A stretch of 64,000 nt of DNA, from assembly GCA_003155655.1 (NCBI GenBank), contig PMDS01000135.1, positions 1-64,000 on the forward strand, given 5' to 3'. Positions 3,891 to 58,474 of this stretch are shown here, one piece after another (the stretch's first letter is position 1; every line of letters begins with the position of its first letter). The stretch comes from Melioribacter sp. GTDB lineage: Bacteria > Bacteroidota > Ignavibacteria > Ignavibacteriales > Melioribacteraceae. Below the pieces are notes generated by a model, which saw nothing but the letters and a program-made list of their open reading frames with translations, ran no database searches and was not told where the DNA came from. Position numbers and translations under genes: made by a program.

Positions 3891-3921
3891 TAATATTTGG
3901 CTTTGGCAGGCGAGCTTAAAA

Positions 3922-35699: not shown

Positions 35700-35727
35700 T
35701 GTCATTTATTTTTGTGCTAAATTTTTT

Positions 35728-35810: not shown

Positions 35811-36026
35811 AAGATATGTTCTGTATAACACAGGATTTTTGTGTTTTAAAGAAATGATGTGATGAAGGTTCTTCAATTTTACAATCATGTTTTCACGATT
35901 TATTTAAAGTTCGCCACGGTACCCGCAGAATGCTAGAAAAATTAAAAATAGTGGAAGAGAATATAAAACATATCAAGAAGGTTTGGTTTCTGGAATAATG
36001 TTATTTATTTTTGTGCTAAATTTTTT

Positions 36027-36109
36027 TGCCCCGTAGTGTAATTGGCAACACGTCTGACTCTGGATCATCCCGACAATGTCGGGAAGGTTCGACCCCTGAC
36101 TAGATAGCA
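36027..36109 (+). pseudogene. Broken tRNA-Gln copy 2
   Basis: Same structure as copy 1, including the identical TCCCGACAATGTCGGGA insert; the acceptor 3' strand reads CTAGATAGCA. The T stem is intact here (CCCCTGA), so this copy is slightly less decayed than copy 1. Confidence 0.85.
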
Positions 36110-36324: not shown

Positions 36325-36397
36325 TGCCCCGTAGTGTAATTGGCAACACGTCTGACTCTGGATCAGAAGACTTCAGGTTCGACCCCTGACGGGGCAG
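36325..36397 (+). tRNA. tRNA-Gln (anticodon CTG)
   Basis: 73 nt including the discriminator base G. Acceptor TGCCCCG/CGGGGCA, D arm GTGTAATTGGCAACAC, anticodon stem TCTGA/TCAGA with loop CTCTGGA (CTG at 36358-36360), variable loop AGACT, T arm TCAGG-TTCGACC-CCTGA. CCA is not fully encoded (GCAC follows). It is the likely attachment site of the adjoining island, since a tyrosine recombinase gene starts 129 bases downstream. Confidence 0.95.
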
Positions 36398-36466
36398 CAC
36401 TTTCAAGCTGCATTCTAAATATCTCGTCTGATTTTCACTGAAATTCTAGGTTAAATTCACTGAACA

Positions 36467-36525: not shown

Positions 36526-37563
36526 ATGTTTTTAGCCCAAAGAGCTAATGGTATCTATTTTATTGAATTTTTTGACCAACAATCTAAAAGAATCAAACGA
36601 AAATCCTTGGGTACGAAAAACCAAACGGAGGCTTACTCTCTTTATTCAAAATTCTTCCAGGAGCCTATATATACTGATAAGAAAGAGAGTTTGCAGAATA
36701 AAAAAAGATTAGAAGAATTCCGAAAGGAATATGTCTCTTCGCTTCAACATACTCATTCTCAAAAGTATATCTCTTCCATTAATCTATCCTTTAAGAAGCT
36801 TATCGAACATTGTGGTAATATTGATTTGAATATTCTTAACACAATACTCATGCAAAAATTTATCAATGAAACCTATGGACGTACTAAAAGAAGCGCGGCA
36901 TTGTATTTTAGAACGCTGAAGGCAGCATTTAATAAAAGTGTTGATTGGGATTATCTTTCAGAAAACCCATTAAGAAAAGTGAAATTGCCTCGAATTGAAA
37001 AATCATTTCCCGTTTTTATAACAGAGAACCAATTGAATACAATTCTTACGAAAGTTAATAATGAAAAATTTGTGAATATCTACAAAACAGCTTTTTATAC
37101 CGGGATGAGACTTGGAGAGATTAGCAATCTTAAATGGAAATCAATCAATCTTAATGAAAAATTAATTGTGGTTATTAATGATGAGAATTTTACTACAAAA
37201 AGTAAGAAGGAAAGAATCATTCCGATTAGTAACAAGTTAATCTCAATTTTTAACAATCTGAAACAGAATGTAAACTCATCAGATAAAGAGGATTATGTGT
37301 TTGGAAAATATCCAGATGTTAAAAGCAGTCAGGATCACGTGAGCCGTAAATTTAAGGATGCCGTACTTGAAACCGGGATTGATTCTAGAATTCATTTTCA
37401 TACACTAAGGCATAGTTTTGCTAGTAACTTAGTTCAAAAAGGGGCATCATTATATGTTGTTAAAGAACTTCTTGGGCATGAAAGCATAACAACCACACAG
37501 ATTTACGCACATTTGCAGAAGGAAAATCTGATTAATGCCGTGAAATTACTGGATAATATTTAA
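36526..37563 (+). CDS. Tyrosine recombinase (integrase) 1
   Basis: A 345-residue site-specific recombinase with a strong AGGAGG ribosome site. The N-terminal SAM-like core-binding domain spans about 60-160. The catalytic domain has the first arginine in YTGMRLGEISNLKW (about 190), a lysine in the TKSKKERIIPI hairpin, HTLRHSFASN (H-x-x-R) near 290, the GHESITTTQ histidine, and the tyrosine nucleophile in QIYAHL near 326. It lies 129 bases downstream of tRNA-Gln, the classic place for an element's integrase. It is clearly related to the second recombinase at 59157. Confidence 0.94.
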   Translation: MFLAQRANGIYFIEFFDQQSKRIKRKSLGTKNQTEAYSLYSKFFQEPIYTDKKESLQNKKRLEEFRKEYVSSLQHTHSQKYISSINLSFKKLIEHCGNIDLNILNTILMQKFINETYGRTKRSAALYFRTLKAAFNKSVDWDYLSENPLRKVKLPRIEKSFPVFITENQLNTILTKVNNEKFVNIYKTAFYTGMRLGEISNLKWKSINLNEKLIVVINDENFTTKSKKERIIPISNKLISIFNNLKQNVNSSDKEDYVFGKYPDVKSSQDHVSRKFKDAVLETGIDSRIHFHTLRHSFASNLVQKGASLYVVKELLGHESITTTQIYAHLQKENLINAVKLLDNI

Positions 37564-37668: not shown

Positions 37669-38991
37669 TTGAAGCTGAAAGAAACTGAAACAATTGAATT
37701 TAAGAAGTCTACTGCTGAACTTAATGATGCACTTAAATCCATTTCAGCAATACTTAATAAACACCAAAAAGGTGAATTATTCTTTGGTTTGAAAAACGAT
37801 GGCTCTCCTGTTAAAAATTCAGTTTCGGAAAAAACTTTGCGTGATATATCCCAATCTATTTCAACTAAAATTGAACCTAAAATATATCCTACTATTGTTA
37901 CTACAACTATAGATGAAGTAGATATAATAAGAGTATCATTCGAAGGCAGCCACATACCGTATTCTGCAGAAGGGAGGTATTTCATTAGAGTAGCCGATGA
38001 AGATAGACAGCTCTCTGCCGCTGAGTTAAAAAAACTCATTATAAGAAATAAGAATTATAGATGGGATTCAGCTGTTAATCATACTGCTTCCTCAAAAGAG
38101 ATCGATATTAAAAAAGTCAAAGAATTCTGCCGTCTTGCAGGGATTACTTTTACTAATGTTCGTGATGTTCTCGAATCATTAAATCTGTATGTAGATGAAA
38201 CATTGACTAATGCTGCTGTCATTTTATTCGCAAAAAACCCTTATAAGTATTTTTTCAACGCCAGACTGATGTGTGCTGTTTTCGCATCAGATAATACTGC
38301 TTCTATCCTTGATCAAAAAGAATTTCACGGTGATTTATTTACACTTATTAGAGAAGCCGAACTTTATATTCTTAAAAATATACATATCGGAATGGAAGTT
38401 GAAGGTTTGTACCGAAATGATGTACCTGAGATCAATCAAGAAGCTATTCGAGAAGCAATTATTAATGCTTTTATACATAGAGATTACACAGAACTTGATT
38501 TCGTTTCCTTAAATGTATTCAAAAACCGGGTTGAAATTAGAAGTCCCGGTGGGTTATTTGGCGGTCTTCAAATCCGGGATATAGTTAAGCGGCATATCTC
38601 AAAAAGAAGAAACGAACTTATTGCTGATCTGTTAAGCCGTGCTCACTATGTAGAGCGTAAAGGAAGGGGTATTTCTTTAATCCTTGGCAAAGAACCCAAA
38701 ACAAAATTCGAAGAGATCGCGGATTTATTTATCACAACTTTCCAGCGCAAACCAGATTTAATCCCTCAGCCCAAAAGGGGAATAAATGAGGGTGTAAATG
38801 AGGGTATAAGTGAGGGTATAAAATCTATATTAGATTTTATAAAAGGGAATCCCGGCATTAATGCTGTTAAACTTTCAGAAGAAACTAATATTCCGTTAAA
38901 GACATTGGAAAGATGGGTAAGGTCGCTAAAAAAGAAACAAGCAATCGAATTCCGAGGAAGTAGAAAAACCGGCGGCTATTTTGTAAAATAA
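37669..38991 (+). CDS. AlbA_2 (Schlafen-type) domain protein with ATP-binding and winged-helix regions
   Basis: A 440-residue protein starting at TTG 37669 (no good ribosome site). Residues 5-125 form the AlbA_2 domain (ETIEFKKSTAELNDALKSISAILN, then GELFFGLKNDGSP and a Y-S-A-E-G-R-Y-F-I-R-V segment). Residues 250-345 match the HATPase_c_4 region (NQEAIREAIINAFIHRDY; KNRVEIRSPGGLFGG; ADLLSRAHYVERKGRGI). A repetitive GINEGVNEGISEGI linker leads to a C-terminal winged helix (about 385-440). Such proteins are often called RecG-like regulators and recur in defence islands. It may regulate or accompany the downstream cassette. Confidence 0.88.
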   Translation: MKLKETETIEFKKSTAELNDALKSISAILNKHQKGELFFGLKNDGSPVKNSVSEKTLRDISQSISTKIEPKIYPTIVTTTIDEVDIIRVSFEGSHIPYSAEGRYFIRVADEDRQLSAAELKKLIIRNKNYRWDSAVNHTASSKEIDIKKVKEFCRLAGITFTNVRDVLESLNLYVDETLTNAAVILFAKNPYKYFFNARLMCAVFASDNTASILDQKEFHGDLFTLIREAELYILKNIHIGMEVEGLYRNDVPEINQEAIREAIINAFIHRDYTELDFVSLNVFKNRVEIRSPGGLFGGLQIRDIVKRHISKRRNELIADLLSRAHYVERKGRGISLILGKEPKTKFEEIADLFITTFQRKPDLIPQPKRGINEGVNEGISEGIKSILDFIKGNPGINAVKLSEETNIPLKTLERWVRSLKKKQAIEFRGSRKTGGYFVK

Positions 38992-39117: not shown

Positions 39118-42100
39118 GTGAAAAATATATTCACCTTACATAATGATATTATGAGCGATTATAAGCTGTATTTAGACAGCTTCATTAATATCGCTGATGA
39201 AGAAATCAATTCCAAAGTTAGAGCCGAGTTGGAGTCAGGCAGATTGTATCCCGAACCACTAATTCAATTTAATCCAACTTTTGAATCCGGGGGAACTGTA
39301 AATGATTTGGTAAAACAAGGTGTTTTACATAGTGACCTCAATAATATTTTTTATGATGAATTAGGCAAATCATGGTCTATTTATAAACATCAGAGCGAAG
39401 CAATCAAACTTGGGAATGAAGGTAGAGGATTTGTTGTTACATCGGGTACCGGTTCCGGTAAAAGTTTAACCTATATTTCTACCATATTTAATTACCTATT
39501 TCAAACTCCTTCCTCAAACGGAATTAAAGCAATAATCGTTTATCCATTGAATGCATTAATAAATTCACAAGAAGTTGCATTAAAGAATTTCAATGAGAAC
39601 TATAAAAAAAGAACGGGTGACAGCTTACCGTTCACCTTTGCTAAATATACCGGGCAGGAAAATCAATCTGATAGAGAAAAAGTAATTACAAGTCCGCCGG
39701 ATATTCTGCTTACAAATTACATGATGTTAGAATTGCTGATGGTTAGAAAAAATGATGAGGATCTGAGAAATTCTTTTTTGGAAAACTTGAAATACCTTGT
39801 CTTTGATGAACTTCACGTTTATAAAGGAAGACAAGGCGCTGATGTTTCACTATTAATTCGGAGATTAAAAGCTGTAAGTAAAAACTCGAATATTATTTGT
39901 ATAGGAACCTCGGCTACGATGGCCTCGGGAACTGTTGCCGAACAAAAAGAGATAGTTGCAAAAGTAGCATGCAACTTCTTTGATTCATTATTTACACCTG
40001 AACAAATTATTGTTGAATCACTTACTTATTCAACATTAGATAAAATACCCGATAAAAATGAGTTAAAAAAAACGATAGAAGAAAAGGTTCAAAATAAATC
40101 TAAAGACGAATTGTTATGTAATCCAATTGCAATTTGGTTGGAACGAAAAATTGGAATTAAAGAGGATGGGAATAATAAAGTAAGAAATAATCCACAATCT
40201 TTGTCGGATATTGCAAAACAATTATCGGTTGAAACAGATAGCTCAGTTGAGAAATGTCAACAAAATATTGTTGAAATCTTAACACAAGCTGAATCGATTA
40301 ACATAAAAAGTGTGCAGGAGAAAAATAAAGAAACGATACTCCCATTCAAATTGCACCAGTTCATTTCACAAACAGGGTATGTTTATGTTACTCTTCAAAA
40401 ATCCGGTGAAAGGTTTATTACGTTGGACACAAGCCCGACCGTAAAATTTTCTGAAAACGGACCCGAAATCCCAGTATTCCAAACAGTGTTCAGCAGAATT
40501 AGTGGACATGAGTTCATCTGTGTAAGAAAAGATTATGATGATCCTGACGGAAAGAAATTTGTATTTCGGGATTTTAATAATAATCAAAATCCTAGAAACG
40601 AAGATGATCTCAAAATAAATGACGGGCTAAAAACACATAAAAGAAAAAGAACCCAGGATGAATTTAAAGACGGCTATTTGCTATTTGAAAAAAATTACAA
40701 CATGAAGATCGAAGAATTCATTGAAATTCTCCCAGCTTCCTGGGTAACAAAATCCGGTAAAATTGATCCATCCAAAGAAATGTTTTTTCCAAAGGAAGTT
40801 TATGTGACTAAAGATGGTTATTTCTCAGAATCACCGAATGATGGAGAAAAAGCCTGGTTTTTAGCTGCACCCCTCATTTATGATCCTACTTGCGGAGTAA
40901 TTTATCAAGAAACAAAACTGAGCGAGAAAACAAAACTTATATCTTTAGGAAATGAAGGGCGATCCACCTCAACAACATTAATTACACTTCAAACATTGCT
41001 TGCACTTTATAAGCATGGAAAACTTCTGAAAGAACAAAAATTAATGAGTTTCACAGATAACAGACAGGACGCTTCATTACAAGCAGGGCACTTTAACGAT
41101 TTTATACAAGTAGTACACCTTCGCTCTGCAATCGAGAAAGTTTTAAGAAATGAAAATTCCGGTTTACCGATATATGATTTGATTTATAAGGTTCAAGACT
41201 CGTTAAATTTATCAGAGACTGAATACGCTCAAAATCCTTCCGGTGATCCCGAATATCCGAATGAAACTAATCGAGCAGCATTAAGAAATTATATTAGTTA
41301 TAGAATTATCCAGGACCTTAAAAGAGGCTGGCGTTACGTTTTGCCAAACTTAGAACAAACTGCGTTACTTGAAATTACCTATCAAAATATTGATACTTAT
41401 TGCGGTAATGAAATGTTTTGGACCGATATTAATTTGTTAAATGAATGGACGCCTCAAGAAAGAAAAGAATTTATCACACAAATCCTAGACTATTTTAGAA
41501 ACAGTTATGCTATTGATTTTGAACTGCTCAGATACGAAAATCGTTTAAGAATCCAAGATGAATTAAATAATACACTAAATAAAGAAAAACTTTGGTCTTT
41601 AGATAAAGGGGAGAGACTCGATGCCCCGAATTTTCTTTCGTTGCAAGGTAGGGATAAAGCCCCGAGAGAAACATACATTCAAAGTATTGGATCACGAAGT
41701 CGTTTAGCCAGGTTTGTTAATTACGAATTTCGTAAATCAAGTCGTCATCAACCTAATTCTGAAGAATACAACAGTTTTATGTCTAAAATTCTAGTATTGC
41801 TGACCGACAAGATGCATTTATTGAAAAGACAAATTATCAAAGCCGAAAAAGGTGAAAAAGAATCTTATCAATTAGTTTTGTCTACGGTACTTTGGAGGAA
41901 TGGAGATCAAGTAAATATAACCACAGACAAGACTTCATACATTACTATTAGTAATGAAAATGAAATTAAAATAAAACCGCATTTATATTTCCAGAAATTA
42001 TATAAGGTAGATTTTTCAAAACTACCTAAATCTTATATAGCAGCGGAACACTCAGGCCAAATATCAACTGAAGAAAAGATTCAAAGAGAAGGGAATTTTA

Positions 42101-44316
42101 ATGATGCTATTGAATTAAGCGCTTTGTATTGTTCACCTACTATGGAATTGGGAATTGATATTTCATCATTAAATATTGTACACATGAGAAATGTTCCGCC
42201 GAGCCCGGCAAACTATGCGCAACGCAGCGGGCGTGCTGGTAGAAGCGGACAATCTGCATTGGTATTTACATACGCGTCAAAATTTTCTTCGCACGATAAA
42301 CATTATTTTGCCGATCCGGTGAAAATGGTATCGGGTATTGTTCAAGCACCGAGAATAGACTTAACAAACGAAGAACTCATAAGATCACATATCAATGCGA
42401 CGGTTTTATATTTTTTGAATGCCGAGGAGTTTAAACCATCCTTGCTTGAATTAATAGATATTGCTGGAAAAACGTATAAGCTAAAAAGCGAGCTTAAAAC
42501 AAAATATCAGGATGTAATTGATTCAAGATTCGATGAAATTTTGCTTTTAGTAAAAAATATTTTAAAAAATATCCGTCTATACGATACCAACTGGTATACT
42601 GATGAATGGTTAGAAATTCAAATTAAAAACGTGCCAATTAAACTTGAAAACTCTTTATTGCGCTGGAGAAAAATGTACTTAGATGCATTGCGCCAAATGA
42701 ATGAGGCACATGAAATTAAAACCAGTCCCATAATAAAAGACCAGGTAGAAAAAAGAATTGCAGATCGATCATATTGGTTGGCGGAGAATCGTATGCATCT
42801 ATTGTTAAATAACTCGGAGAAAAGCAAAAACTCAACACTTTCAGAATTTTATACCTTCCGATATTTAGCTTCCGAAGGTTTTTTGCCGGGATATAATTTT
42901 ACACGTTTACCGATACGTGTATTTCTTGGCGGAAGGGATAGAAACGAATCCTTATCAAGACCGCGATTTTTAGGGCTAAGGGAATATGGACCAAATAATT
43001 TGATATATCATAACGGTGGGAAGTATAAGATTACACGCTATACTCCAAACGATGTTGCTCTGAATCTATCAAAAATCAAAATTTCCAAAGACACTAATTA
43101 TGCTTTCCTAAATGAAGAAGGAGCCGGGAAAAATCAGGATCCGATAACGGGAGTTCAGTTTAACTCAAGCAATTTGGATTTGTACGATAATCTATTTGAA
43201 CTGGAAGAAGCACAATCCGAAAACATAGAGCGCATTTCATGTATGGAAGAAATACGTACTTCCGAGGGATACGTTATTGATTTGTATCTCAATAGTGCGG
43301 ATAATCTTGAGGATGCTACAAAAATAAAATTAACCGTCGATGGGGAAGAGCTTATGAAGCTTTTTTATGTTCCCTCGGCAAAGTTGATTATGCTGAACAA
43401 AAAATGGAGACGTAGCAGCGAAGAAGGATTCTTTATTGGAGAGAAATCAGGATTATTAAAAACACAAAAACAATTGGAGAAGCCAAACCCGGATGATAAG
43501 CCATCGAACGTTCGTCTATTTACTTATGACACTTCGGATGTTTTATATATTCAACCGGTAAAAGCGTTAAACTTGAGCGAAGAAGGTGTAGTAACAATGC
43601 AATATGCTTTGGAAAAAGCTGTAGAATCATATTACAATATTGAGCCTGTTGAAATTGCTGCAAAACTTATGGGAAGTAGTGAATATAAAAATATAATGCT
43701 CTATGAATCGGCTGAAGGTAGCATTGGTGTTTTAAAAGATATAGCGAGAAACCCAGCGAAACTCAGAAGTCTTTTCCAAAAGGCTTATGAAATTTGCGGC
43801 TATGATTATGAATCTAAGAAGGACAATTACCCGGACCGTCCAAAGGCAACCTATGATGATTTATTGAGTTATTATAATCAGATGGATCACAATAAAATAA
43901 ATAGGCATTCCGTGAAGAATGCATTGGAATTGTTGATAATTTCAAATCCGGACGATACACTGGGTTCTACATACGAAGAAAAATATGAAATGTTGAATAA
44001 AGGATTACATCAAAAAAGTGCGGGTGAAAAAACATTATTAGATTTCCTTTTTAATAACGGTTATAGACTTCCTGATTACACTAATTACAATTTGGAGCAG
44101 TTTTATATCCAACCGGATTTTGTCTATGAAAAAGATAGAGTTTTGATTTTTGTAGACGGAGGCATTCATAAAAACACAGCATTAAAAACAAGTGATGAAA
44201 AAAAGCGAAGGGTACTCGAATTGGCGGGTTTTGATGTTTTGGTTTGGGACTATACTGCGGAAGCAGTTTCATCTTTTGTTGAACGACGACAAGATATTTT
44301 CAGAAAAGTTAGATGA
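39118..44316 (+). CDS. DUF1998-type DEAD/DEAH helicase with C-terminal nuclease-like domain (DISARM DrmA/DrmB- or DruE-like)
   Basis: A 1732-residue superfamily 2 helicase of the YprA/DruE group, starting at GTG 39118 or ATG 39151. Motif I TSGTGSGKS (about 108-116), motif II VFDELHVYKGRQGADV (about 228), motif III GTSATM (about 263), and motif VI NYAQRSGRAGRSGQ (about 1035). A DUF1998 (MZB)-like region at about 1490-1610 shows MLYESAEGSIGVLKDI and DDLLSYYNQMDHNKINRH, but the cysteine positions typical of that zinc domain are replaced (TYDD where relatives have CYDC). The last 95 residues resemble a PD-(D/E)xK or VSR/DUF559-like nuclease: QPDFVY, VDGGIHK, then KRRVLELAGFDVLVWDY. It is followed by SNF2 and methylase genes, hence the DISARM comparison. 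Confidence 0.85.
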   Translation: MKNIFTLHNDIMSDYKLYLDSFINIADEEINSKVRAELESGRLYPEPLIQFNPTFESGGTVNDLVKQGVLHSDLNNIFYDELGKSWSIYKHQSEAIKLGNEGRGFVVTSGTGSGKSLTYISTIFNYLFQTPSSNGIKAIIVYPLNALINSQEVALKNFNENYKKRTGDSLPFTFAKYTGQENQSDREKVITSPPDILLTNYMMLELLMVRKNDEDLRNSFLENLKYLVFDELHVYKGRQGADVSLLIRRLKAVSKNSNIICIGTSATMASGTVAEQKEIVAKVACNFFDSLFTPEQIIVESLTYSTLDKIPDKNELKKTIEEKVQNKSKDELLCNPIAIWLERKIGIKEDGNNKVRNNPQSLSDIAKQLSVETDSSVEKCQQNIVEILTQAESINIKSVQEKNKETILPFKLHQFISQTGYVYVTLQKSGERFITLDTSPTVKFSENGPEIPVFQTVFSRISGHEFICVRKDYDDPDGKKFVFRDFNNNQNPRNEDDLKINDGLKTHKRKRTQDEFKDGYLLFEKNYNMKIEEFIEILPASWVTKSGKIDPSKEMFFPKEVYVTKDGYFSESPNDGEKAWFLAAPLIYDPTCGVIYQETKLSEKTKLISLGNEGRSTSTTLITLQTLLALYKHGKLLKEQKLMSFTDNRQDASLQAGHFNDFIQVVHLRSAIEKVLRNENSGLPIYDLIYKVQDSLNLSETEYAQNPSGDPEYPNETNRAALRNYISYRIIQDLKRGWRYVLPNLEQTALLEITYQNIDTYCGNEMFWTDINLLNEWTPQERKEFITQILDYFRNSYAIDFELLRYENRLRIQDELNNTLNKEKLWSLDKGERLDAPNFLSLQGRDKAPRETYIQSIGSRSRLARFVNYEFRKSSRHQPNSEEYNSFMSKILVLLTDKMHLLKRQIIKAEKGEKESYQLVLSTVLWRNGDQVNITTDKTSYITISNENEIKIKPHLYFQKLYKVDFSKLPKSYIAAEHSGQISTEEKIQREGNFNDAIELSALYCSPTMELGIDISSLNIVHMRNVPPSPANYAQRSGRAGRSGQSALVFTYASKFSSHDKHYFADPVKMVSGIVQAPRIDLTNEELIRSHINATVLYFLNAEEFKPSLLELIDIAGKTYKLKSELKTKYQDVIDSRFDEILLLVKNILKNIRLYDTNWYTDEWLEIQIKNVPIKLENSLLRWRKMYLDALRQMNEAHEIKTSPIIKDQVEKRIADRSYWLAENRMHLLLNNSEKSKNSTLSEFYTFRYLASEGFLPGYNFTRLPIRVFLGGRDRNESLSRPRFLGLREYGPNNLIYHNGGKYKITRYTPNDVALNLSKIKISKDTNYAFLNEEGAGKNQDPITGVQFNSSNLDLYDNLFELEEAQSENIERISCMEEIRTSEGYVIDLYLNSADNLEDATKIKLTVDGEELMKLFYVPSAKLIMLNKKWRRSSEEGFFIGEKSGLLKTQKQLEKPNPDDKPSNVRLFTYDTSDVLYIQPVKALNLSEEGVVTMQYALEKAVESYYNIEPVEIAAKLMGSSEYKNIMLYESAEGSIGVLKDIARNPAKLRSLFQKAYEICGYDYESKKDNYPDRPKATYDDLLSYYNQMDHNKINRHSVKNALELLIISNPDDTLGSTYEEKYEMLNKGLHQKSAGEKTLLDFLFNNGYRLPDYTNYNLEQFYIQPDFVYEKDRVLIFVDGGIHKNTALKTSDEKKRRVLELAGFDVLVWDYTAEAVSSFVERRQDIFRKVR

Positions 44317-44326
44317 TATACCGATT

Positions 44327-47194
44327 ATGATTGAAAGTAAATTAAAAAAGCCGGGTAAGCTCGTAAAGTTTAGAGGGAGAAGGTGTGTAGTTCAGCCTTC
44401 TCTTGATACGGATATTATTCTTTTAAAACCATTGGGAGGTACGGACGAAGAAATAATTGCTTTGTTTGAACCGGTTGTTCAGCATTATGAAAAAATTGAA
44501 GACGATCAATTCGAACTGCCTGATGTAACCGATCTCGATAGTTTTCTTACAGCGAAACTTTTATACGATGCAGCACGACTTTCCTTTAGACAGGTTAGTG
44601 GTCCATTCCGTGCAATGGGAAAACTTTCTTTTCGTCCTAGATCATATCAGCTTGTTCCGTTGATAATGGCATTAAAACAACCTATTACAAAACTTTTAAT
44701 TGCCGATGATGTTGGAGTTGGCAAAACGATAGAAGCATTATTGATATTGCGCGAATTAATCGAACGTGGCATAATTAAAAGTTTTGCAATTTTATGCCCG
44801 CCTCATTTGTGTGAACAATGGCAAAAGGAATTAGCTGATAAACTCGATATTGAGGCAGTAATTATTCGTACAAGCACTGTAGCAAGTTTGGAAAGAAAAA
44901 TCGTTGGTGATGATACATTAAACGTGTTTAATTATTACCCGTACCAGGTAATATCAATAGACTATGTAAAAAGCGATAATAAAAAACCCGTATTTCTGAA
45001 AGACGCTCCAGAATTAATAATTGTTGATGAAGTTCATACTTGTGCAAGACCTCAAAATCAAAGAGACAATCAGCAGCAGAGATTCCATTTATTAAAAGAA
45101 TTGTCCAATAATAAAGAAAGGCATACGGTATTTCTTACTGCAACACCTCACAGTGGAAAAGATGAGGAGTTTAAATCGCTCATAAGTCTTCTTAATAGTG
45201 AATTTGATTCCTATAATTTGATGGACCTCGCTGTTTCTGAAAAAAGAAAATTGGCTTCTCACTTTATACAGCGTAAAAGAAAGAGTATTGAAAAATGGCT
45301 GGATGAAACTACACCATTCCCGAAAAGAATAACTGAAGAATTGCCTTATAGACTTTCCGATGAATATCTGGATTTTTACAAAGAAGTATTGAAATTTGCA
45401 AGGGGTATAACCGGCGATGGAGTTTCAGATAATAAAGCGCGCATAAAATACTTTGCGGCATTAACACTTCTTCGCGGAGTAATGAGCAGTCCTTCTGCCG
45501 GTTATGAAATGCTGCAAAGGAGAAAAGCTAAATCGATTGCTGAAGAAGAAAATGACTTCCAAGATGTAAAAGAAAATCCGGTTCTGGAAAAATGGGACGA
45601 ACAGACAGATACTGAACAGCTTGAAATAATCGACAAAGCAAACCTTACAGATTCCGAATGGACTACTTTATATCGTTTATCTCAGAAGATTGACAGCCTC
45701 CGGGATATTTCCAAGGATTATAAACTTAAGCGGGTTGTTGATCAGATTAAAATTTGGGTTAATAACAAACAAAGTCCTATTATTTTTTGCAGGTTCATTG
45801 CGACGGCAAATTATATAGCCGATCAATTAAAAACACTTTTTCCTGCCGACGTCGATATACGTTCTATCACAAGTGAACTAAGCGACGAAGAACGAAGAGA
45901 GAAAATCGATGAAATGGGAAAAAGCAATAAACGAATTTTGGTCGCAACTGATTGTTTAAGCGAAGGAATAAACCTACAAGATAAATTTAACGCGGTTCTT
46001 CATTATGACTTACCATGGAATCCAAACCGGCTTGAACAGCGCGAGGGACGTGTTGACCGCTTCGGACAAATAGGCTGGATTGACAAACATGGCGAATTGC
46101 AAAATACTATCGATGTAAAAGTTTTGTTTGGTGAGGATAACCCTATTGATGTTGTTGTATTAAAAATTATAATTGAAAAAATTCAGAAAATCCAAAATAC
46201 ATCTGGAGTAAGTATTGCTTTGGCAGATGATAACCGCTCCGTTATCGACCGGGTATTGAAAGAAGTGCTGCTTAATCCCGAGAAAGCACACAATCAATTC
46301 AGCAAACAATTGAGAATGGATTTTGGCGCCAGCGAAGAATTGACTGAACTTGATACAGAGATAACAAACGAAATTGAAATGGCAAGAGATAAGGCCGAAA
46401 AAATTCGTTCTATTTTTGCTCATGAAAATATTAAACCCGAAGATGTTCAAAAAGATCTACACGAAGTTGATGAAGCAATCGGCGACGTTGCAACACTCGA
46501 ATCGTTTGTAATATCAGCCGCACAATTGCTGGGGGCAAGATTAGAGCCGGTAAAGGACGGCTACATTTTCCACAAACAAAATATGGATTCATGGTTATCT
46601 GGAATACTTGGCAACGGCGATAAAATTCATATATCGTTTTTGTCACCCACACCACTTGGATATCGTTACATCGGGCGTAATCACCGTTTTGTTGAACAGC
46701 TTTGTCATCGAATTATTGCAAACTCACTGGAAAAAGAAAGTAAAGGTCCAAAAGCGGCAAGGGCCTCGGTTTTCCGAACAGATGCAGTATCAATTCAGTC
46801 CACGCTTATTCAATTCCGTGTACGCAATGTTATAAGAGAAGTAGGTACACAATATGAAATTGTATCCGAAGAAATGTTTTTGTGGGGATATGAACAAACT
46901 ATTGACGGAATTAAAACTTTGGAAATTGAGGAATGTAAAAAACTACTTCACATTGCCAACGCAATCGATATTAGCCAGGAACGGCAGGAAATTTTATTCA
47001 ATAATGAATTGAAACATTTTCAAGAATTACATCCGAATTTTATTAGAGTAGTTGAAAAGAGAGCAGCTGAACTTGTTTACGCTCATTCGCGGTTTGCAAA
47101 ATTTCTTGGCGCTAAAAGATTTGAAGCAGTTACACCGGTTTTACCGCCGGATATTTTAGGTGTATATGTATTAATTCCTAATCCTATTATATAA
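44327..47194 (+). CDS. SNF2/HepA-like helicase, DISARM DrmD-like
   Basis: About 955 residues from ATG 44327, 11 bases past the helicase stop. The open frame extends upstream into the helicase gene, but those 45 codons are just overlap. Motif I LIADDVGVGKTIEALL (about 127), motif II IIVDEVHTCA (about 233), motif III LTATPHSGK, and motifs V-VI ATDCLSEGINLQ...LPWNPNRLEQREGRVDRFGQ (about 545-575). A long helical C-terminal region follows. Length and organisation fit DrmD of class 1 DISARM and related SNF2 proteins found beside DNA methylases in defence loci. It probably moves along or remodels DNA with the neighbouring helicase and methylase. Confidence 0.88.
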   Translation: MIESKLKKPGKLVKFRGRRCVVQPSLDTDIILLKPLGGTDEEIIALFEPVVQHYEKIEDDQFELPDVTDLDSFLTAKLLYDAARLSFRQVSGPFRAMGKLSFRPRSYQLVPLIMALKQPITKLLIADDVGVGKTIEALLILRELIERGIIKSFAILCPPHLCEQWQKELADKLDIEAVIIRTSTVASLERKIVGDDTLNVFNYYPYQVISIDYVKSDNKKPVFLKDAPELIIVDEVHTCARPQNQRDNQQQRFHLLKELSNNKERHTVFLTATPHSGKDEEFKSLISLLNSEFDSYNLMDLAVSEKRKLASHFIQRKRKSIEKWLDETTPFPKRITEELPYRLSDEYLDFYKEVLKFARGITGDGVSDNKARIKYFAALTLLRGVMSSPSAGYEMLQRRKAKSIAEEENDFQDVKENPVLEKWDEQTDTEQLEIIDKANLTDSEWTTLYRLSQKIDSLRDISKDYKLKRVVDQIKIWVNNKQSPIIFCRFIATANYIADQLKTLFPADVDIRSITSELSDEERREKIDEMGKSNKRILVATDCLSEGINLQDKFNAVLHYDLPWNPNRLEQREGRVDRFGQIGWIDKHGELQNTIDVKVLFGEDNPIDVVVLKIIIEKIQKIQNTSGVSIALADDNRSVIDRVLKEVLLNPEKAHNQFSKQLRMDFGASEELTELDTEITNEIEMARDKAEKIRSIFAHENIKPEDVQKDLHEVDEAIGDVATLESFVISAAQLLGARLEPVKDGYIFHKQNMDSWLSGILGNGDKIHISFLSPTPLGYRYIGRNHRFVEQLCHRIIANSLEKESKGPKAARASVFRTDAVSIQSTLIQFRVRNVIREVGTQYEIVSEEMFLWGYEQTIDGIKTLEIEECKKLLHIANAIDISQERQEILFNNELKHFQELHPNFIRVVEKRAAELVYAHSRFAKFLGAKRFEAVTPVLPPDILGVYVLIPNPII

Positions 47195-47208
47195 GAATAA
47201 ACGATAAT

Positions 47209-50200
47209 ATGAACTTCCCTTCAATTGAAATACAAGGTAGTATTCTATCGGCAGATTTACTAAGCAAAATCCGGTCCGAGCAGGCTTCATTTCAACAGGG
47301 AAAAGATTTTAATAATGAATTAACTAATGCCAAACTAAAAGATGAAATTAGTTTTGCTTGGCAGGAAGCTAAAGGACAGTGGCTAATATTTCAAAGTAAA
47401 CTTGCCAGGTTAAAAGAGAACCAAACCGGCACAACCGAAACCCGCAATTTTTGGATAATTCCTCTACTCACAAATCTTAGTTACAATCTTGCTTTTTCAA
47501 GAAGCTCCGATGAACTCAGCGGAAAATTATTTCCTATTAACTACCGGGACAGCCAATTGGACGGCTTTCCGTTATACATCGGAAGTTGCTACGAATCATT
47601 GGATAGACGCCCTGAAAACAAACAACTCCGTGTATCACCTCACGCGATGCTGCAGGAATATCTGAACTACAGCGAACACCTCTACGGAATCGTTACCAAC
47701 GGAAAACAACTCCGTTTACTGCGCGATGCAAGCCGCATTACAAGATTAAGTTACATTGAATTTAATCTTGAAAAAATGATGGAAGAGGATCTTTATTCTG
47801 ATTTTGTATTACTCTTCCGTTTGCTTCATTCTTCACGTATGCCTAAAACCATTGATGGCGGATCGGAAAGCATAATTGAAAAATATCACCAGGAAAGTCT
47901 TGAAGCCGGAAGTACTATCCGAAGCAAACTTGGTGATGCTGTAAAAAATTCGATTAAAAGTTTGGCTAACGGATTTATAAATCATCCCGATAACGCAAAT
48001 CTAAGAGAAGCAGCAAAAAACAATAAATTGCACAACTATGAATATTATCACCATTTACTACGGATAGTTTACCGGCTGCTGTTTTTGTTTGTAATTGAAG
48101 AACGCAACCTTGTATTTGCAGAAAGTAAAACGCCGGAAACAAAACGGTTTAACCAAATCTATTTTAATTACTACAGCTTATTGCGTTTACGAAAGCTTGC
48201 AAAAAAACTTCCACCACCGGATGCCGAACGTAATTACGATTTATGGCAGGGACTTGTAAGCACTTTCGCTTTATTTGAAAAGAAAGAGATCGGTGAGAAG
48301 ATGGGCATTATGAGTTTGGAAGGTGAGCTTTTCAGTTATGACGCGATATGCGGTTCGGAATACGATCTTCATAAATGCAAAATTAGCAATGCGGTTTTGC
48401 TGGGTGTTATAAAATCCCTTACATACTTTGAAAATGAAAACAAAGTATTGATTTCCGTAAACTACGGTGGATTGGATGTTGAAGAATTCGGTTCAGTGTA
48501 CGAGGGATTATTGGAATTGAAGCTGAACATTAGCAAGGTGGAAGGAAGCGAAGATTATAGCTGTAATTTTGATACAAGTACGGAAAGAAGTAAAAGCGGA
48601 AGCCATTACACTCCAGAGGAATTGGTTCAGCCGTTATTAAAACATTCCCTGGAATATTTAATAGAAGATAGAATAAAAGAACCACACTTGTTTGTTCGTA
48701 CGGAAGAAACAAAGAATCTTTCTGTTAAAGAGCAGAAAGTAAATGCGCTTCTCAATTTAAAAGTTTGCGATGTTGCATGCGGAAGCGGACATATTCTATT
48801 AAGCGCGGCAAGAAGAATTTCTTTGGAAATTGCGCGTATACAAAATGACGAAGAACAGCCGAACCCTTTGGCAATTAGAAAAGCAATGAAGGATGTTGTA
48901 CGCCGATGTATTTATGGTGTTGATAAAAATCCGCTTGCAGTTGAATTATGCAAAGTTGCTCTATGGCTTGAAGCACACAACCCGGGCGAACCGCTGAATT
49001 TTTTGGATCACCATATTAAATGCGGCGATTCCATTGTTGGACTAGCAAGAAGGGAAGAGCTTGAAAGAGGAATAGCAAATGAAGCATTTAAATTACTGCC
49101 CAGTGATGACAAAGAGGTTGTAAAAGCTTTTAGAGATAAAAACTTAAAAGAAAGAAAAGATATTGGACAATCTGAATTAAATTTTGAGAAAGTTATTTCT
49201 AAAGAGTTAAAAACAATAATTGAAGAATATGATTGGTTCAAAAAATTACCGGAGAGAACCACAAATGAAGTTGCCGATAAAGGAAAGAAATACAGAAAAT
49301 ATTTGAGATCTGTTGAACACATTCGTTTAAAACAAATTGCCGACTTGCAAGTAGCACAATTCTTTATTCCTAAAACCTTGGAAACAAAGAACTATTTAAT
49401 TACTGATGCGGCTTATAGAGATTTATTATTAAATGTTTCGACAGGATTGGGAGTGATACAAGATCGTAGAGCTGCCTATGCGGAAACCGTTGCCCTTGAA
49501 AAAAAAATCTTTCATTGGTTTTTAGAATTCCCAGATGTGTTTGCTGAAGGGGGTTTTGATTGTATTCTTGGAAATCCCCCATATTTGGGAGGAAGCAAGG
49601 TATCTGGTTTATTTGGAAATCCTTACCTCAATTTTTTGCACAGTATTTATTTCCCCACGGGAGGACAAGCTGATTTAGTCTCATACTTTCTCAGAAGGGT
49701 TTACAACTTGGTCCGAGATAATGGTTTTTTATCATTAATTACTACAAATACAATTTCACAGTCAGAAACTAAGAATGGAGGATTAGATTTACTTCTTCTA
49801 GAAAAAGCAAATATACTATATGCGATTTCTTCTATGAAGTGGCCGGGGGATGCAAAATTGTTTATATCGCTGTTATCAATTGTAAAAGGGAGTTGGAATA
49901 AACCAAGAAACTTAAACAATAGAGAAGTGCAATTTATTGGAAGTGATCTAAGTGTCATAAAAACAATCGGAGAACCTTATCGCCTAATTAAAATGCAAAA
50001 TCTTGTGTTTAAAGGGACAGATTTTGGTGGTGATGGATTCCTTTTGAGTGATGTTAAAATGAAAAATATAATTGCCTTATCGCCTCACAGTCATGAAGTA
50101 ATATTTCCGACAATAAATGGAAAGGAAATTAATTCAGATCCTCAACAATTACCTTCTAGGTATATAATTAATTTTTTTGATTGGGAATTAAGTAAAGCAA

Positions 50201-51069
50201 GTATTTATGAAGAAGCATTTAAAATAGTTGAAGAAAAAGTCAAACCTATTAGAGAAATAAATAAAAGAAAAATATATCGAGACAAATGGTGGCTATATTG
50301 CGAGCGTAGAGTGCAGTTATATGAAAAGCTAAAAAAAATAAAGTATTGTTTCGTTGCTGCAACAACGACTAGATATCTTTCATTCTCAAGGTTAAAAACA
50401 AATATCATCTTTTCAAACGCACTTTTTGTATTTACAACCGATAGGTTTTTAAATTATGCATTGATTCAAAACACAATTCATAATGAATGGGCTAGAAAGT
50501 ATAGTTCTTCTCTAAAAAATGATCTTCGATATGCACCAACTGATAGTTTTGAAACTTTTCCTTTCCCTCAAAACCCTTTAAAAGAAACTGAAGAAGAACT
50601 TGAAAAGATCGGAGAGCAATACCACGAATTCCGTCGCCAACTTATGCTAAACCTGCAGCTTGGTTTAACAAAAACTTATAATTTGTTCCATACAAAACAA
50701 TTCACAGTAGCCAATCCGCACTTAACAAAAGCTAGATTGCAGATACCTATAGAGCAAGCAATTAAAGAAATAGAAACACTGCGCCAACTCCAAAAACAAA
50801 TGGATGAGGGAGTTCTTAAAGCTTACGGTTGGACAGACATAAATTTAGCCCATGACTTTTACGAAGTAGATTACCTGCCTGAAAATGATAGAATCAGATA
50901 TACAATTTCACCCGAAGCCCGCAAAGAAATATTAAAACGTTTATTAGAACTAAACCACAAAATCCACGATGAAGAAGTTGCTGCGGGTTTGTGGGATAAA
51001 AAAGGAAAGAAGAAAGAAAAAGTAGAAACACCAAAACCAAGAGATGAGGGGCAACACGAAATGTTTTAG
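47209..51069 (+). CDS. Large N6-adenine DNA methyltransferase (Eco57I/PglX/DrmMI type)
   Basis: A 1286-residue protein. Residues 1-450 form a mostly helical N-terminal part with no clear nuclease motif. The methylase core has HYTPEELVQPLL, the AdoMet-binding motif I VCDVACGSGHILLSAARR (about 519-536) and the catalytic motif IV NPPY in DCILGNPPYLGG (788-791). A target-recognition-like region and a basic, Lys-rich tail follow. The gamma-class order is that of Eco57I-like type IIG enzymes, PglX of BREX and DrmMI of DISARM. It starts 14 bases after the SNF2 gene. Predicted role: marking self DNA for the cassette. Confidence 0.92.
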   Translation: MNFPSIEIQGSILSADLLSKIRSEQASFQQGKDFNNELTNAKLKDEISFAWQEAKGQWLIFQSKLARLKENQTGTTETRNFWIIPLLTNLSYNLAFSRSSDELSGKLFPINYRDSQLDGFPLYIGSCYESLDRRPENKQLRVSPHAMLQEYLNYSEHLYGIVTNGKQLRLLRDASRITRLSYIEFNLEKMMEEDLYSDFVLLFRLLHSSRMPKTIDGGSESIIEKYHQESLEAGSTIRSKLGDAVKNSIKSLANGFINHPDNANLREAAKNNKLHNYEYYHHLLRIVYRLLFLFVIEERNLVFAESKTPETKRFNQIYFNYYSLLRLRKLAKKLPPPDAERNYDLWQGLVSTFALFEKKEIGEKMGIMSLEGELFSYDAICGSEYDLHKCKISNAVLLGVIKSLTYFENENKVLISVNYGGLDVEEFGSVYEGLLELKLNISKVEGSEDYSCNFDTSTERSKSGSHYTPEELVQPLLKHSLEYLIEDRIKEPHLFVRTEETKNLSVKEQKVNALLNLKVCDVACGSGHILLSAARRISLEIARIQNDEEQPNPLAIRKAMKDVVRRCIYGVDKNPLAVELCKVALWLEAHNPGEPLNFLDHHIKCGDSIVGLARREELERGIANEAFKLLPSDDKEVVKAFRDKNLKERKDIGQSELNFEKVISKELKTIIEEYDWFKKLPERTTNEVADKGKKYRKYLRSVEHIRLKQIADLQVAQFFIPKTLETKNYLITDAAYRDLLLNVSTGLGVIQDRRAAYAETVALEKKIFHWFLEFPDVFAEGGFDCILGNPPYLGGSKVSGLFGNPYLNFLHSIYFPTGGQADLVSYFLRRVYNLVRDNGFLSLITTNTISQSETKNGGLDLLLLEKANILYAISSMKWPGDAKLFISLLSIVKGSWNKPRNLNNREVQFIGSDLSVIKTIGEPYRLIKMQNLVFKGTDFGGDGFLLSDVKMKNIIALSPHSHEVIFPTINGKEINSDPQQLPSRYIINFFDWELSKASIYEEAFKIVEEKVKPIREINKRKIYRDKWWLYCERRVQLYEKLKKIKYCFVAATTTRYLSFSRLKTNIIFSNALFVFTTDRFLNYALIQNTIHNEWARKYSSSLKNDLRYAPTDSFETFPFPQNPLKETEEELEKIGEQYHEFRRQLMLNLQLGLTKTYNLFHTKQFTVANPHLTKARLQIPIEQAIKEIETLRQLQKQMDEGVLKAYGWTDINLAHDFYEVDYLPENDRIRYTISPEARKEILKRLLELNHKIHDEEVAAGLWDKKGKKKEKVETPKPRDEGQHEMF

Positions 51070-51137: not shown

Positions 51138-53879
51138 ATGGGGACTCAAATGAAAGAAAAAGGTTTTAGCTTTGATTGTCATCAAAATGTGATGATTAAT
51201 GAAAATCAAAACATTCCTACAGTAGTTTATAAAAATAAAAGTAAAAAACTAATTGGTTATGAAGCTTTAGAATTAACTTCTGAGATTGACAAAATTAACA
51301 AGAATTTTAAGCTAGATATTGGAAAATATGACAGCTCCAAGAATGTGGATTACCGGTATCACAAAACAGCGGATGGGGAGTATGCATCATCAATTAAATT
51401 ATTCGAAATATTTATGGACAAAATCTTAGATGAAGTTGATAAATCTTTATCTATGATGGGACTTTTACGTCCAAATAGTTTGATGGTTGCTGAACCACTC
51501 GCATTATTGAATACAGAGGAGGGGCCTATTGAAGATAAAGCATGGTTATCCCTCTATCGTGCAAATATAAAAAAATACTTCAGTGCAAAAGGATTTATAA
51601 ATATCCAATTTTTACCTGAGCCTTTTGCTGCATTTCAATACTATAAATACATAAAAAAATTTCCACCTCTTTTTGAAAAAAAGAAATATTATGTATTTGT
51701 AATAGATTTTGGCGGTGGAACTTTCGACACATGCGTTATTGAAACTACTATTGAAGGTGAAATTAATAAAAATGAAAAAAATGCCCGACCAATTGGTGCC
51801 TCATCAATCCCTAAAGGAGGTACCAATCTTGACAAGTTAATTCTCGATGATCTTATCCTAAAAAATAATAAATCAAATAGCGCCGAATTGAAAAGGGCTA
51901 TTAGATATTGCCGCGATGTTCTAAAGGAGAGGAAAAAAATAGAGGATGGAGACGTAGGACATCAATGTTTTTATAAAAATTACCTTCATGCTTTAGATAC
52001 AATTGAAAGTGGTAAAAAAGTATTAACTAATCGTATCAGAGATTGGAGCTTAGACAGTGATGATAATGAAACAATTAACTTTTCTCTACCGGATGATTTT
52101 TTTAGTCCGAATTCAACTTTAAAAAATTATCGATTATCGACTTTTCAATATCGCGACATATTTTGTAATTTTTATGAAAACGAACTAAAAAAAGGTATTA
52201 GTAGGACTTTAGATAATTCAGAGCAATATCTATCTAAAAATATTGATTATATATTGTTATCTGGTGGGTCCTGTCAAATATCATGGTTAAAAGAATTGAT
52301 AACACGTGATTTTCAACGTGTATTAAATCAAAGTGAGTTTATTAAACTTAATAATTATAAAGAAGTTGTTTCGGGGGGATTGGCAATAGAAAGTGCTAGA
52401 AGGTTTTATACTCCAAATGGGGATTTTGCTGATACAACCTATAACACTATAAATCTAATATTAAATCCCAATGATAGAGGATATGAAATACCCACCTACA
52501 AATGTGAAACATTAATAACTGACGAAAACACTAAAGAGGGTGTACTAATCCCTTCAGCAACATTTATGCGAAATATATTTGATAAGAAGATATCATGGAA
52601 ATTCAGGTTGAAATCAGAACCGAAACATACTTTAGCACATTATTTTCTAAGAAACACATTGGATATATTTAAAGAATCTGAAATTGATGGTGATAATAAA
52701 TATGCGGATAATTTATTAAATATAATGAACACCCAAGTGGACGTTAAAGCTAAAATATTTGATCAACACTGTCGGCTTGAATTGGAAATAAAAGAGGACG
52801 GCACTGTGTATCCAGAGTTTATATTTAATAAATTAAATAGTCCTGACTCTAGAGTAAAACCAAAACCATTTGTAATTGATATGACTTATGGCGATGAAAA
52901 TATAGACACAAACGCATACCTAGGAATTGATTTTGGAACATGTAATAGTTCAGTTAGTTATGTGAGCCAAAAAGACATTGCACTCTACGACACCAAGAAA
53001 AAATCCTCAATTAACGACACTATGATTACTATTATTAAGGAAGGCAATTACCCAATAGCTTATACTTTAGCTCACTATTACAAAGAATCCGAGGAAGAAC
53101 TGCGAATAAAAAGATTTGCTCGATTCTATGAAAACACACTTACACTCATGCTTTTTGTTATAATTTCGGAACTTCAGGAAGGAAAGAAAAAATATAACAT
53201 CGAGCTTAGTAAATATATGAGATCTGCCGGGTCAATACTAAGTAACATAAAACAATTAATTACTTATATCAATAACGATTGCCATTTCTCAAATCAAATA
53301 AAATTAATATTGTCTAAAGAAGTCATTTCAAAATTAGAAAAGGGAGTTAGTATTATTAATAGTGATAAGCACACATCTCAGAATAATAGTTCCCTCTTGG
53401 AGGAAAACTGTACACTATTAATTGATATAATAGAGAAAATTTTTACTCGATTAAATTTTGGTTTCTTTGAGAACATCAGATCCCAACCATTTTCTCCTCT
53501 TTTAGAAGGAGATTTTATAAACGCTCATGGGAATAGTTTATTTATAGAGAAAATGAAATATAAAGGAAATGAGAACTATGCCAAACAGTTTGCTTTTTTT
53601 GTAGATATAGCAAATGGCAAAGCTCTTAACCTGTTCCCACTAGTCTTATGGGAGAGTTGTAATAAACACTTTGATGCTGACTATGGCCACTGCTATTTCT
53701 TTAGTCTTATTCGTAAAAATGACGGAGTAATCGTTTATAATTCTGCAGATGGATTATGCACAAAAGAAATTAAACCTGGTGAGAAGACCTTCAAATCATT
53801 TTATTCCGAACTCGAAAAAAGTTTTGCTGGTGTAAATAAAAATAATATTTCTAAAGTTGAGATTTCAGAGGTTATTTAA
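51138..53879 (+). CDS. Hsp70/actin-like ATPase with rearranged nucleotide-binding motifs
   Basis: A 913-residue protein; ATG 51138 follows an in-frame stop, and ATG 51150 is an alternative. Residues 25-420 follow the Hsp70 NBD from the strand after phosphate-1: NIPTVVYKNKSKKLIGYEAL, LPEPFAAFQYY, phosphate-2 VIDFGGGTFDTCVIE (D190) and the adenosine motif LLSGGSCQ (about 376). The usual N-terminal phosphate-1 loop (DxGTTNS) is absent from the start. A fitting copy, GIDFGTCNSSVSYV (D598), lies 400 residues later with no second GGGT after it. The arrangement suggests a circular permutation or a split NBD. The remaining C-terminal 300 residues are helical and unknown. It sits in the defence cassette 69 bases past the methylase gene. 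Confidence 0.75.
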   Translation: MGTQMKEKGFSFDCHQNVMINENQNIPTVVYKNKSKKLIGYEALELTSEIDKINKNFKLDIGKYDSSKNVDYRYHKTADGEYASSIKLFEIFMDKILDEVDKSLSMMGLLRPNSLMVAEPLALLNTEEGPIEDKAWLSLYRANIKKYFSAKGFINIQFLPEPFAAFQYYKYIKKFPPLFEKKKYYVFVIDFGGGTFDTCVIETTIEGEINKNEKNARPIGASSIPKGGTNLDKLILDDLILKNNKSNSAELKRAIRYCRDVLKERKKIEDGDVGHQCFYKNYLHALDTIESGKKVLTNRIRDWSLDSDDNETINFSLPDDFFSPNSTLKNYRLSTFQYRDIFCNFYENELKKGISRTLDNSEQYLSKNIDYILLSGGSCQISWLKELITRDFQRVLNQSEFIKLNNYKEVVSGGLAIESARRFYTPNGDFADTTYNTINLILNPNDRGYEIPTYKCETLITDENTKEGVLIPSATFMRNIFDKKISWKFRLKSEPKHTLAHYFLRNTLDIFKESEIDGDNKYADNLLNIMNTQVDVKAKIFDQHCRLELEIKEDGTVYPEFIFNKLNSPDSRVKPKPFVIDMTYGDENIDTNAYLGIDFGTCNSSVSYVSQKDIALYDTKKKSSINDTMITIIKEGNYPIAYTLAHYYKESEEELRIKRFARFYENTLTLMLFVIISELQEGKKKYNIELSKYMRSAGSILSNIKQLITYINNDCHFSNQIKLILSKEVISKLEKGVSIINSDKHTSQNNSSLLEENCTLLIDIIEKIFTRLNFGFFENIRSQPFSPLLEGDFINAHGNSLFIEKMKYKGNENYAKQFAFFVDIANGKALNLFPLVLWESCNKHFDADYGHCYFFSLIRKNDGVIVYNSADGLCTKEIKPGEKTFKSFYSELEKSFAGVNKNNISKVEISEVI

Positions 53880-53934
53880 ATAAATGCTCGATTCAATTAA
53901 ATTATGCGTTATATGATTTAATAGAAGGATGGAT

Positions 53935-57177: not shown

Positions 57178-57897
57178 ATGGCTTCACCCAAGAAAGAAAA
57201 CGGATTTACAGCAATACCAAATGAACTCTTTGAAGCGATTCTTATGAGTTCATTGACTTTAAGAGAGCTAAAGATAGTTTTATTTGTTATCCGATATACT
57301 TATGGATTCCAACGACAAGAAGCCAAGCTTTCAGTAAGATTTATTGCTGAGGGAACGGGAATAAAGTTTAATCATATAGCTACATCTATTAAATCACTTC
57401 TACAAAAAAATATATTGTATCTCTACGAAAATTATTCTCATCGTAAAGGTAGAATCATAACCCTGAATACAGATTATGAATCATGGTATTTAAAAAATGC
57501 AATAATTCTTAAGAGTTACCAAAAGAGGAACAGATATGTTCCTATAAAAGTCACTAATAAAGTTCCTGAAACAGTAACAAAGAAAGAAAACGGTAAAGAA
57601 AAAAATAAAGAAAGGTATTGCTCGGCTAAAGTAATATATCTGAATAATTTTCAATCGGAAGACAATTCACAGAATTATAAAATAGCTAAAGAAGATAATT
57701 ACACCCTTAATGAAAAACATCAAAACAATGATCAACCTCAAGCGGTAGATGAGACACATTTACAAATCTCCAATAAATATAATCTTCAGAGTATAGTAAG
57801 TAAAGGAAGCAATAAAGGAAATCTCTTTTCCGCTGGACAAAAAGCAATGTCTAAAAAATGGAGCGATGCTAACATTGCTACAACAAAATATAAATAA
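57178..57897 (+). CDS. Phage replication protein O-like (winged helix)
   Basis: A 239-residue protein. Residues 5-110 follow the phage replication protein O N-terminal domain: ENGFTAIPNELFEAILMSSLTLRELKIVLFVIRYTYGFQRQEAKLS, IAEGTGIKFNHIATSIKSLLQKNIL, a winged helix that binds the origin. The remaining half is low-complexity and polar, the usual linker that recruits a helicase loader. Its end overlaps the DnaC-like gene by 32 bases, the lambda O/P-like arrangement. This indicates that the element can initiate its own replication after excision. Confidence 0.85.
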   Translation: MASPKKENGFTAIPNELFEAILMSSLTLRELKIVLFVIRYTYGFQRQEAKLSVRFIAEGTGIKFNHIATSIKSLLQKNILYLYENYSHRKGRIITLNTDYESWYLKNAIILKSYQKRNRYVPIKVTNKVPETVTKKENGKEKNKERYCSAKVIYLNNFQSEDNSQNYKIAKEDNYTLNEKHQNNDQPQAVDETHLQISNKYNLQSIVSKGSNKGNLFSAGQKAMSKKWSDANIATTKYK

Positions 57898-58474
57898 GGA
57901 TTGGATCCCTTTAATTACGGGAATACCAAAAAGATATCAACAGTATAGTTTTAACAATTTTATTGAAAGAGGAGATAAATACAAGGAAGCTAAATTATGC
58001 TGCAAAGAGTATTTCAACTATAAGTCACATAAATCAGGATTATTTATTGGCGGGCCTCCAGGAGTGGGAAAGACACATTTGGCGGTAGGTACCATTAGAA
58101 ATCTTGAAATAATTACAGAGAATGGAATCCCAAGGAAAGCAAAAGCAAAGATGATCGATGCTGATGAATACTTTAATCTACTATATAATGCCATTAATTC
58201 AAAACAAAGCAAAGATAAGGTCATCCAGGAATTATATCGATATAATGACGTTCTTCTATTAGATGATTTAGGGCTTATAAATATGACGATGGCTAAACAA
58301 GAAAATCTTTACCTCTTGATTAATTACACATATATGCACCTAAGCAAAATAATTATCACAACAAATTTTACTTTAGATGAATTTGCAAAATACGATGAAA
58401 GAATTTCTAGCCGTCTATATGAAATGTGCCATATAATAGTTTTAACAGGTGAGGATTATCGACTAAAACAATAA
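57866..58474 (+). CDS. DnaC/IstB-like AAA+ helicase loader
   Basis: A 202-residue AAA+ ATPase. Walker A GGPPGVGKTHLAVG (about 63-76), Walker B LLLDDLGLINMT (about 130), sensor I region IIITTNF, and the arginine-finger area DERISSRLYEMCHII. Both length and motifs fit DnaC-type loaders rather than IstB of IS21, since no istA is adjacent. It should load the host DnaB helicase at the origin bound by the RepO-like protein. Confidence 0.9.
   Translation: MLTLLQQNINKDWIPLITGIPKRYQQYSFNNFIERGDKYKEAKLCCKEYFNYKSHKSGLFIGGPPGVGKTHLAVGTIRNLEIITENGIPRKAKAKMIDADEYFNLLYNAINSKQSKDKVIQELYRYNDVLLLDDLGLINMTMAKQENLYLLINYTYMHLSKIIITTNFTLDEFAKYDERISSRLYEMCHIIVLTGEDYRLKQ

Follow-up and report, generated by a model that had tools for sequence, protein, structure and literature searches.

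A probable ARMADA Type I operon of Melioribacter sp. belongs to a branch in which the helicase has lost its zinc clusters

The 64,000-nucleotide (nt) stretch of contig PMDS01000135.1 of Melioribacter sp. (assembly GCA_003155655.1) analyzed here, referred to as the window, contains an operon of three adjoining genes for two helicases and a DNA methylase. An earlier note on this DNA had described the three as separated by 10 and 14 nt, and they are indeed open, co-directional open reading frames (ORFs) with these gaps, encoding proteins of 1,732, 955, and 1,286 amino acids (aa).

39118..44316, + strand: helicase ORF with a GTG start (1,732 aa), a YprA-family superfamily 2 (SF2) helicase with a core, a DUF1998 canopy, and a Vsr tail
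44327..47194, + strand: SNF2/RapA-like (BrxHII/DrmD/DpdE-like) helicase (955 aa), assigned by profiles
47209..51069, + strand: PglX/DrmMI/MmeI-like N6-adenine DNA methylase of the Eco57I/MmeI type (1,286 aa), assigned by profiles

By profile, the first helicase is of the DEAD/DEAH class, and its motifs SGTGSGKS, DELH, SAT, and QRSGRAGR are intact, as is NPPY at residue 789 of the methylase, which contains Eco57I, MmeI methylase, and MmeI target recognition domains. PADLOC labels scattered across the trio among DruE, DpdE, DrmD, and DrmMI. The best PADLOC profile of the YprA-family helicase was DruE3 (293 bits, versus 42 bits for DrmA), the top profiles of the SNF2 helicase were DpdE and DrmD (278 to 303 bits for DrmD), and the methylase matched DrmMI at 764 bits. 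Scanning of seven proteins with PADLOC and Pfam gave no match to phospholipase D (PLD), DrmB, or DrmC profiles, and DruH had no match among the scanned neighbors of the trio.

ARMADA is a bacterial anti-phage system defined in a bioRxiv preprint (Bell et al. 2025; PMC12458937). As its main text describes, Type I consists of a YprA helicase with Vsr at its C terminus, followed by a BrxHII/RapA-like helicase and a PglX-like methylase, with the gene order reversed in many cyanobacteria and archaea. The window trio has this order, with the YprA gene first, the RapA-like gene second, and the methylase third. The full-length relatives of its helicase are in ARMADA I operons, and the reversed order was seen in relatives from Chroococcidiopsis and Haloquadratum. 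Like the window protein, the ARMADA Type I helicase has a fused DUF1998 canopy and a C-terminal Vsr nuclease; the window branch differs in having lost all zinc-binding modules of the helicase, including the DUF1998 cluster. Based on the gene order, the Vsr tail, and the grouping of the helicase with full-length ARMADA Type I helicases, we consider it highly probable that the operon is an ARMADA I anti-phage system of a separate branch with a helicase that lost zinc, and that it travels on an integrative element inserted in a tRNA-Gln gene. The trio is of a known kind, and its zinc-free helicase branch is a variant undescribed in the main text of the preprint.

All 17 intact loci of the branch (the window, L001 to L003, L024 to L029, L031 to L033, L045, and L082 to L084) carry the full trio with an unchanged gene order. 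They come from several families of the phylum, Bacteroidales metagenome-assembled genomes among them, and from a Caballeronia plasmid. The three genes are, as the earlier note held, a defense-type cassette that has two gene families in common with class 1 DISARM, and the cassette is conserved. Small additional genes between the SNF2 and methylase genes occur in some loci only: L001 and L002 each encode a four-helix-bundle-like protein there, L001 also an AlbA_2 protein, and L003 an AlbA_2-looking one. Phylogenies of the individual proteins, as the earlier note had proposed, recovered the branch as one clade in all three trees, with Shimodaira-Hasegawa-like approximate likelihood ratio test (SH-aLRT) support of 100 for the helicase (cysteine columns masked), 100 for SNF2, and 97 for the methylase. 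The recurrence of the same clade indicates that the trio was inherited as a unit. In the helicase tree, which was built from ARMADA I, ARMADA II, and Druantia III sequences, the latter two fall outside the branch; their references came from Escherichia coli ATCC 8739, a strain used in the preprint (PMC12458937). No full-length relative was found in phage records. Four related genomes contain truncated N-terminal zinc-free helicase copies of 477 to 485 aa (L074 to L077; L085, positions 2458-3912), which stop just past the first former zinc motif, one having DEPH in place of DELH. These copies are likely remnants.

Another known system close to this trio is ARMADA II of E. coli NCTC 12900 and ATCC 8739, which also combines a homologous helicase, a RapA-like helicase, and a methylase on a tRNA-integrated element. 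Its order differs from that of the window, being RapA-like helicase, methylase, YprA helicase, and then a GajB-like helicase with a RelE-like domain; this last protein, ArmD, is absent from the window trio, and the two YprA-family helicases share about 35% identity over only about 230 residues.

The earlier note had read the trio as DISARM-like, a departure from class 1 in which the drmA- and drmB-like parts appeared to be joined in one protein and a nuclease-like domain of the helicase could stand in for drmC. DISARM does have DrmD- and DrmMI-like proteins, matching the 278 to 303 and 764 bits obtained here, and a DrmB-like canopy fold, which the predicted window canopy resembles (Z score of 9.9). 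However, DISARM has separate DrmA and DrmB and a PLD nuclease, DrmC, whereas in the window a single fused helicase ends in a Vsr nuclease; a helicase-DUF1998 fusion is usual in the YprA family, the DrmA/DrmB split being peculiar to DISARM according to the preprint's main text (PMC12458937). In the profile searches DrmD, DrmMI, and DruE were matched, while DrmA stayed at 42 bits and DrmB gave nothing. With the full-length helicase relatives in ARMADA I operons and the gene order that of ARMADA, we regard a DISARM variant as highly unlikely, and the automatic DISARM reading of such a trio is corrected. No DrmA sequence was added to the helicase tree, because the DrmA profile gave only weak helicase-core matches over 148 genomes of the phylum. 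The earlier note had named two outcomes that would speak against its reading, a helicase grouping with DruE and a trio not conserved together; the first holds in part, as the helicase leans to DruE over DrmA, but the second does not, since the trio stays together in the branch.

That leaning raises a Druantia Type III-like system built on DruE. Druantia III (DruE/DruH) likewise has a YprA-family helicase with a C-terminal nuclease, and DruE3 is the best PADLOC profile of the window helicase. Its nuclease is of the PLD type and is accompanied by DruH, in contrast to the Vsr nuclease of the window helicase and the lack of DruH among the scanned neighbors; SNF2 and methylase partners are absent in Druantia III, and its helicases are more distant (30% identity over 230 residues, outside the clade). 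Further, the solved DruE has four zinc clusters beside the DNA channel, which brace elements there (PMC13192584), and the window helicase has none. The chance of a Druantia system here is very slight.

AlphaFold2 models were built from the window sequence and sequences of related loci, and two domains could be placed in the C-terminal part of the ARMADA I helicase.

43267..43938, + strand: DUF1998 fold (OB-CON-DUF1998 canopy) with the four zinc cysteines gone, residues 1384-1607, from the predicted structure
44005..44313, + strand: Vsr-type (PD-(D/E)xK) nuclease domain, residues 1630-1732, from a structure match

The modeled residues 1384-1607 match the C-terminal part of MrfA (6znp; Z score of 12.9 over 173 residues) and DrmB (7s9v_B; Z score of 9.9 over 198 residues), and the canopy fold is predicted to persist despite the missing cysteines. 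The designation of the protein as a DUF1998-type helicase in the earlier note thus holds for the fold; the Pfam MZB/DUF1998 profiles gave no match in the window helicase (nor MZB anywhere in its own genome), and the sequence contains no CxxC. In the N-terminal 1,100 residues, the model matches the MrfA core (Z score of 25.1 over 406 residues) and Lhr. In a fold search by Foldseek alone, only MrfA was above background, and matches to LuxS and MobM were set aside as incidental. MrfA/YprA shares the helicase core and the DUF1998 fold with the window protein, but it is a DNA repair protein with zinc and without a nuclease tail.

The tail had been suspected in the earlier note to be a nuclease that could replace drmC, itself correctly noted as absent, and the structure prediction proposed there supports this: modeled residues 1630-1729 match the Vsr endonuclease 1cw0 (Z score of 8.6 over 94 residues; root mean square deviation of 2.5 Å). 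The NCBIfam vsr model gave 7.9e-4, under the family's cutoff. The catalytic-type residues E1637, D1667, D1680, and H1684 are present in 21 of 21 complete members of the zinc-free branch, whereas several zinc-type helicases have lost some of them. The nuclease is predicted to be active. One zinc-type ARMADA I locus (L086, genome G325) has its helicase split into ORFs of 385 aa and 1,442 aa.

Zinc modules are considered characteristic of, and structurally important in, YprA-family defense helicases; in the preprint's main text, CxxC modules in the beta-barrel and the oligonucleotide-binding (OB) insertion and a four-cysteine DUF1998 cluster are usual for Type I without being a criterion of it (PMC12458937). 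We scored 11 cysteine positions in 42 distinct helicases. Twenty keep 11 of 11 cysteines and are 24.8 to 34.1% identical to the window protein; the other 22, the window protein and 21 relatives with 37.8 to 72% identity to it, are without clusters in all three modules, including the four-cysteine DUF1998 cluster (for one of them, L015, truncated by the end of its contig, this covers the first module only). None of the 42 is intermediate. The zinc-free branch retains at most one or two lone cysteines; five members have one at position 592 and several have one at 1341. In an alignment of 29 ARMADA I helicases, FCRxCG of the zinc type corresponds to FSRxSG in the zinc-free branch, FCLxCG to DPTxG, and CYxCLLSYxNQ of DUF1998 to SYDDLLSYYNQ; in the OB insertion, both CxxC pairs have given way to S..T/D..T or similar. 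These aligned losses account for both the Pfam MZB mismatch and the absence of CxxC. Outside the zinc-free clade, ARMADA II, Druantia III, and archaeal ARMADA I all keep CxxC motifs. Because the outgroups keep these motifs and the branch has support of 100 with cysteine columns masked, the loss is derived. The main text of the preprint states that the four-cysteine cluster is lost entirely in Dpd only and that two or more CxxC motifs occur in the beta-barrel of this lineage (PMC12458937); the zinc-free branch is an exception to both statements.

The loss might reflect decay, with cysteines disappearing from an inactive remnant under relaxed selection, as the truncated copies in related genomes (L074 to L077) could suggest. 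We find this hardly credible: the window ORFs and catalytic motifs are all intact, the Vsr residues are present in 21 of 21 members, and several replacement residues are themselves fixed over 22 divergent sequences. Such fixation could instead mean that Asp, Ser, and Thr bind another ion and that the modules are still metal sites. Asp is fixed at former cysteine positions 589 (22 of 22) and 1581 (21 of 21), but most of the remaining ligand positions now hold Ser, Thr, Arg, Lys, or Leu, with no His/Glu clusters, and we consider metal replacement unlikely. Since the scaffold is retained and the Ser/Asp/Thr substitutions are fixed, the DUF1998 canopy and beta-barrel folds would be held by protein packing rather than by zinc.

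Tentatively, and with considerable doubt, the zinc-free branch might be a functionally distinct ARMADA type with a helicase that senses or grips DNA differently; the loss of all three zinc modules would then predate the divergence of the known members, and Vsr would be under stronger constraint than in the zinc-bearing relatives. A large, coherent branch working without zinc would be a natural control for the role of zinc in ARMADA, Druantia, and DISARM.

By analogy, the window operon would function in phage defense. The methylase would place N6-adenine marks on the host's DNA, its MmeI/PglX-type recognition domain setting the target site; the RapA-like translocase and YprA helicase might then engage unmarked DNA, either incoming or of a replicating phage, and the C-terminal Vsr nuclease would cut or nick it, without killing the cell if ARMADA Type II is a guide. 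In E. coli ARMADA II, as the preprint's main text reports, every gene, the helicase ATPase motifs, the methylase NPPW, and most of the tested catalytic motifs are needed, and protection is non-abortive, with cells surviving (PMC12458937). A DruE study puts a related helicase-nuclease on replication intermediates that contain single-stranded DNA.

Several points weigh against assignment to ARMADA I in a zinc-free branch. Phage protection is demonstrated in the preprint's main text for Type II only (PMC12458937), and our literature search yielded no experiment on ARMADA Type I. That main text does not contain the zinc-free branch, which the supplementary tables may list. Type I was assigned in the tree from gene order, including the reversed cyanobacterial and archaeal order that the preprint describes. 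Confidence in the C-terminal model is modest (predicted local distance difference test score of 68, predicted template modeling score of 0.40, 9 sequences), and judged from sequence alone the helicase may still bind a metal. Finally, Type I has a BrxA-like helical insertion after RecA1, for which helices at 313-400 of the helicase model are a candidate.

The operon sits in an element of about 40.8 kb integrated in tRNA-Gln.

36325..36398, + strand: tRNA-Gln (ctg), the integration target, at the same position in three same-genus genomes
36356..36403, + strand: left attachment site (attL), an exact 48-bp direct repeat of the 3' part of tRNA-Gln; the second copy is at contig 77094-77141, beyond the window
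36526..37563, + strand: tyrosine integrase adjoining attL, assigned by profiles
37669..38991, + strand: Schlafen AlbA_2 protein with RecG-C-like and winged-helix domains (Pfam), just 5' of the trio
57178..58474, + strand: replication genes of the element (O-like initiator, 57178-57897; DnaC-like helicase loader, 57866-58474)

In the same-genus genomes, the tRNA and the genes to its left are syntenic, and nothing beyond the tRNA is in common. An empty site was sought in these genomes and not demonstrated, the right flank having no match within the contig. ARMADA II is reported on tRNA-integrated elements in the main text of the preprint (PMC12458937), and the present operon adds a Type I example of such carriage from the lineage of this genome. 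The Schlafen AlbA_2 protein is possibly a regulator of the operon; the AlbA_2 gene inside the L001 operon has the same architecture, and the L003 operon contains an AlbA_2-looking ORF.

Two incomplete tRNA-Gln-like copies lie 5' of the intact tRNA-Gln (window 35704-36100), spaced by about 299 bp, in which a CCCGACAATGTCGGG hairpin takes the place of some of the 3' half; contig 77240-77288 holds another copy of this sort. The element also carries a row of four ORFs (window 62172-63719 and L043 4217-16772, contig 64216-76774), encoding a weakly SLATT/SLOG-like protein of 515 aa and proteins of 612, 3,134 (a giant), and 434 aa; Pfam matched nothing in the last three, and PADLOC nothing in the whole row. 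Downstream of the trio are genes for an Hsp70/actin-ATPase-like protein with two half-Hsp70 regions (51138-53879) and an AIPR-family protein (53929-55701; AbiU-like, 124 bits). They were rejected as parts of the system, having no homologues beside the trio in the relatives examined, and are possibly a separate defense pair. A second tyrosine integrase within the element, at 59157-60134, suggests that the element is composite or tandem.
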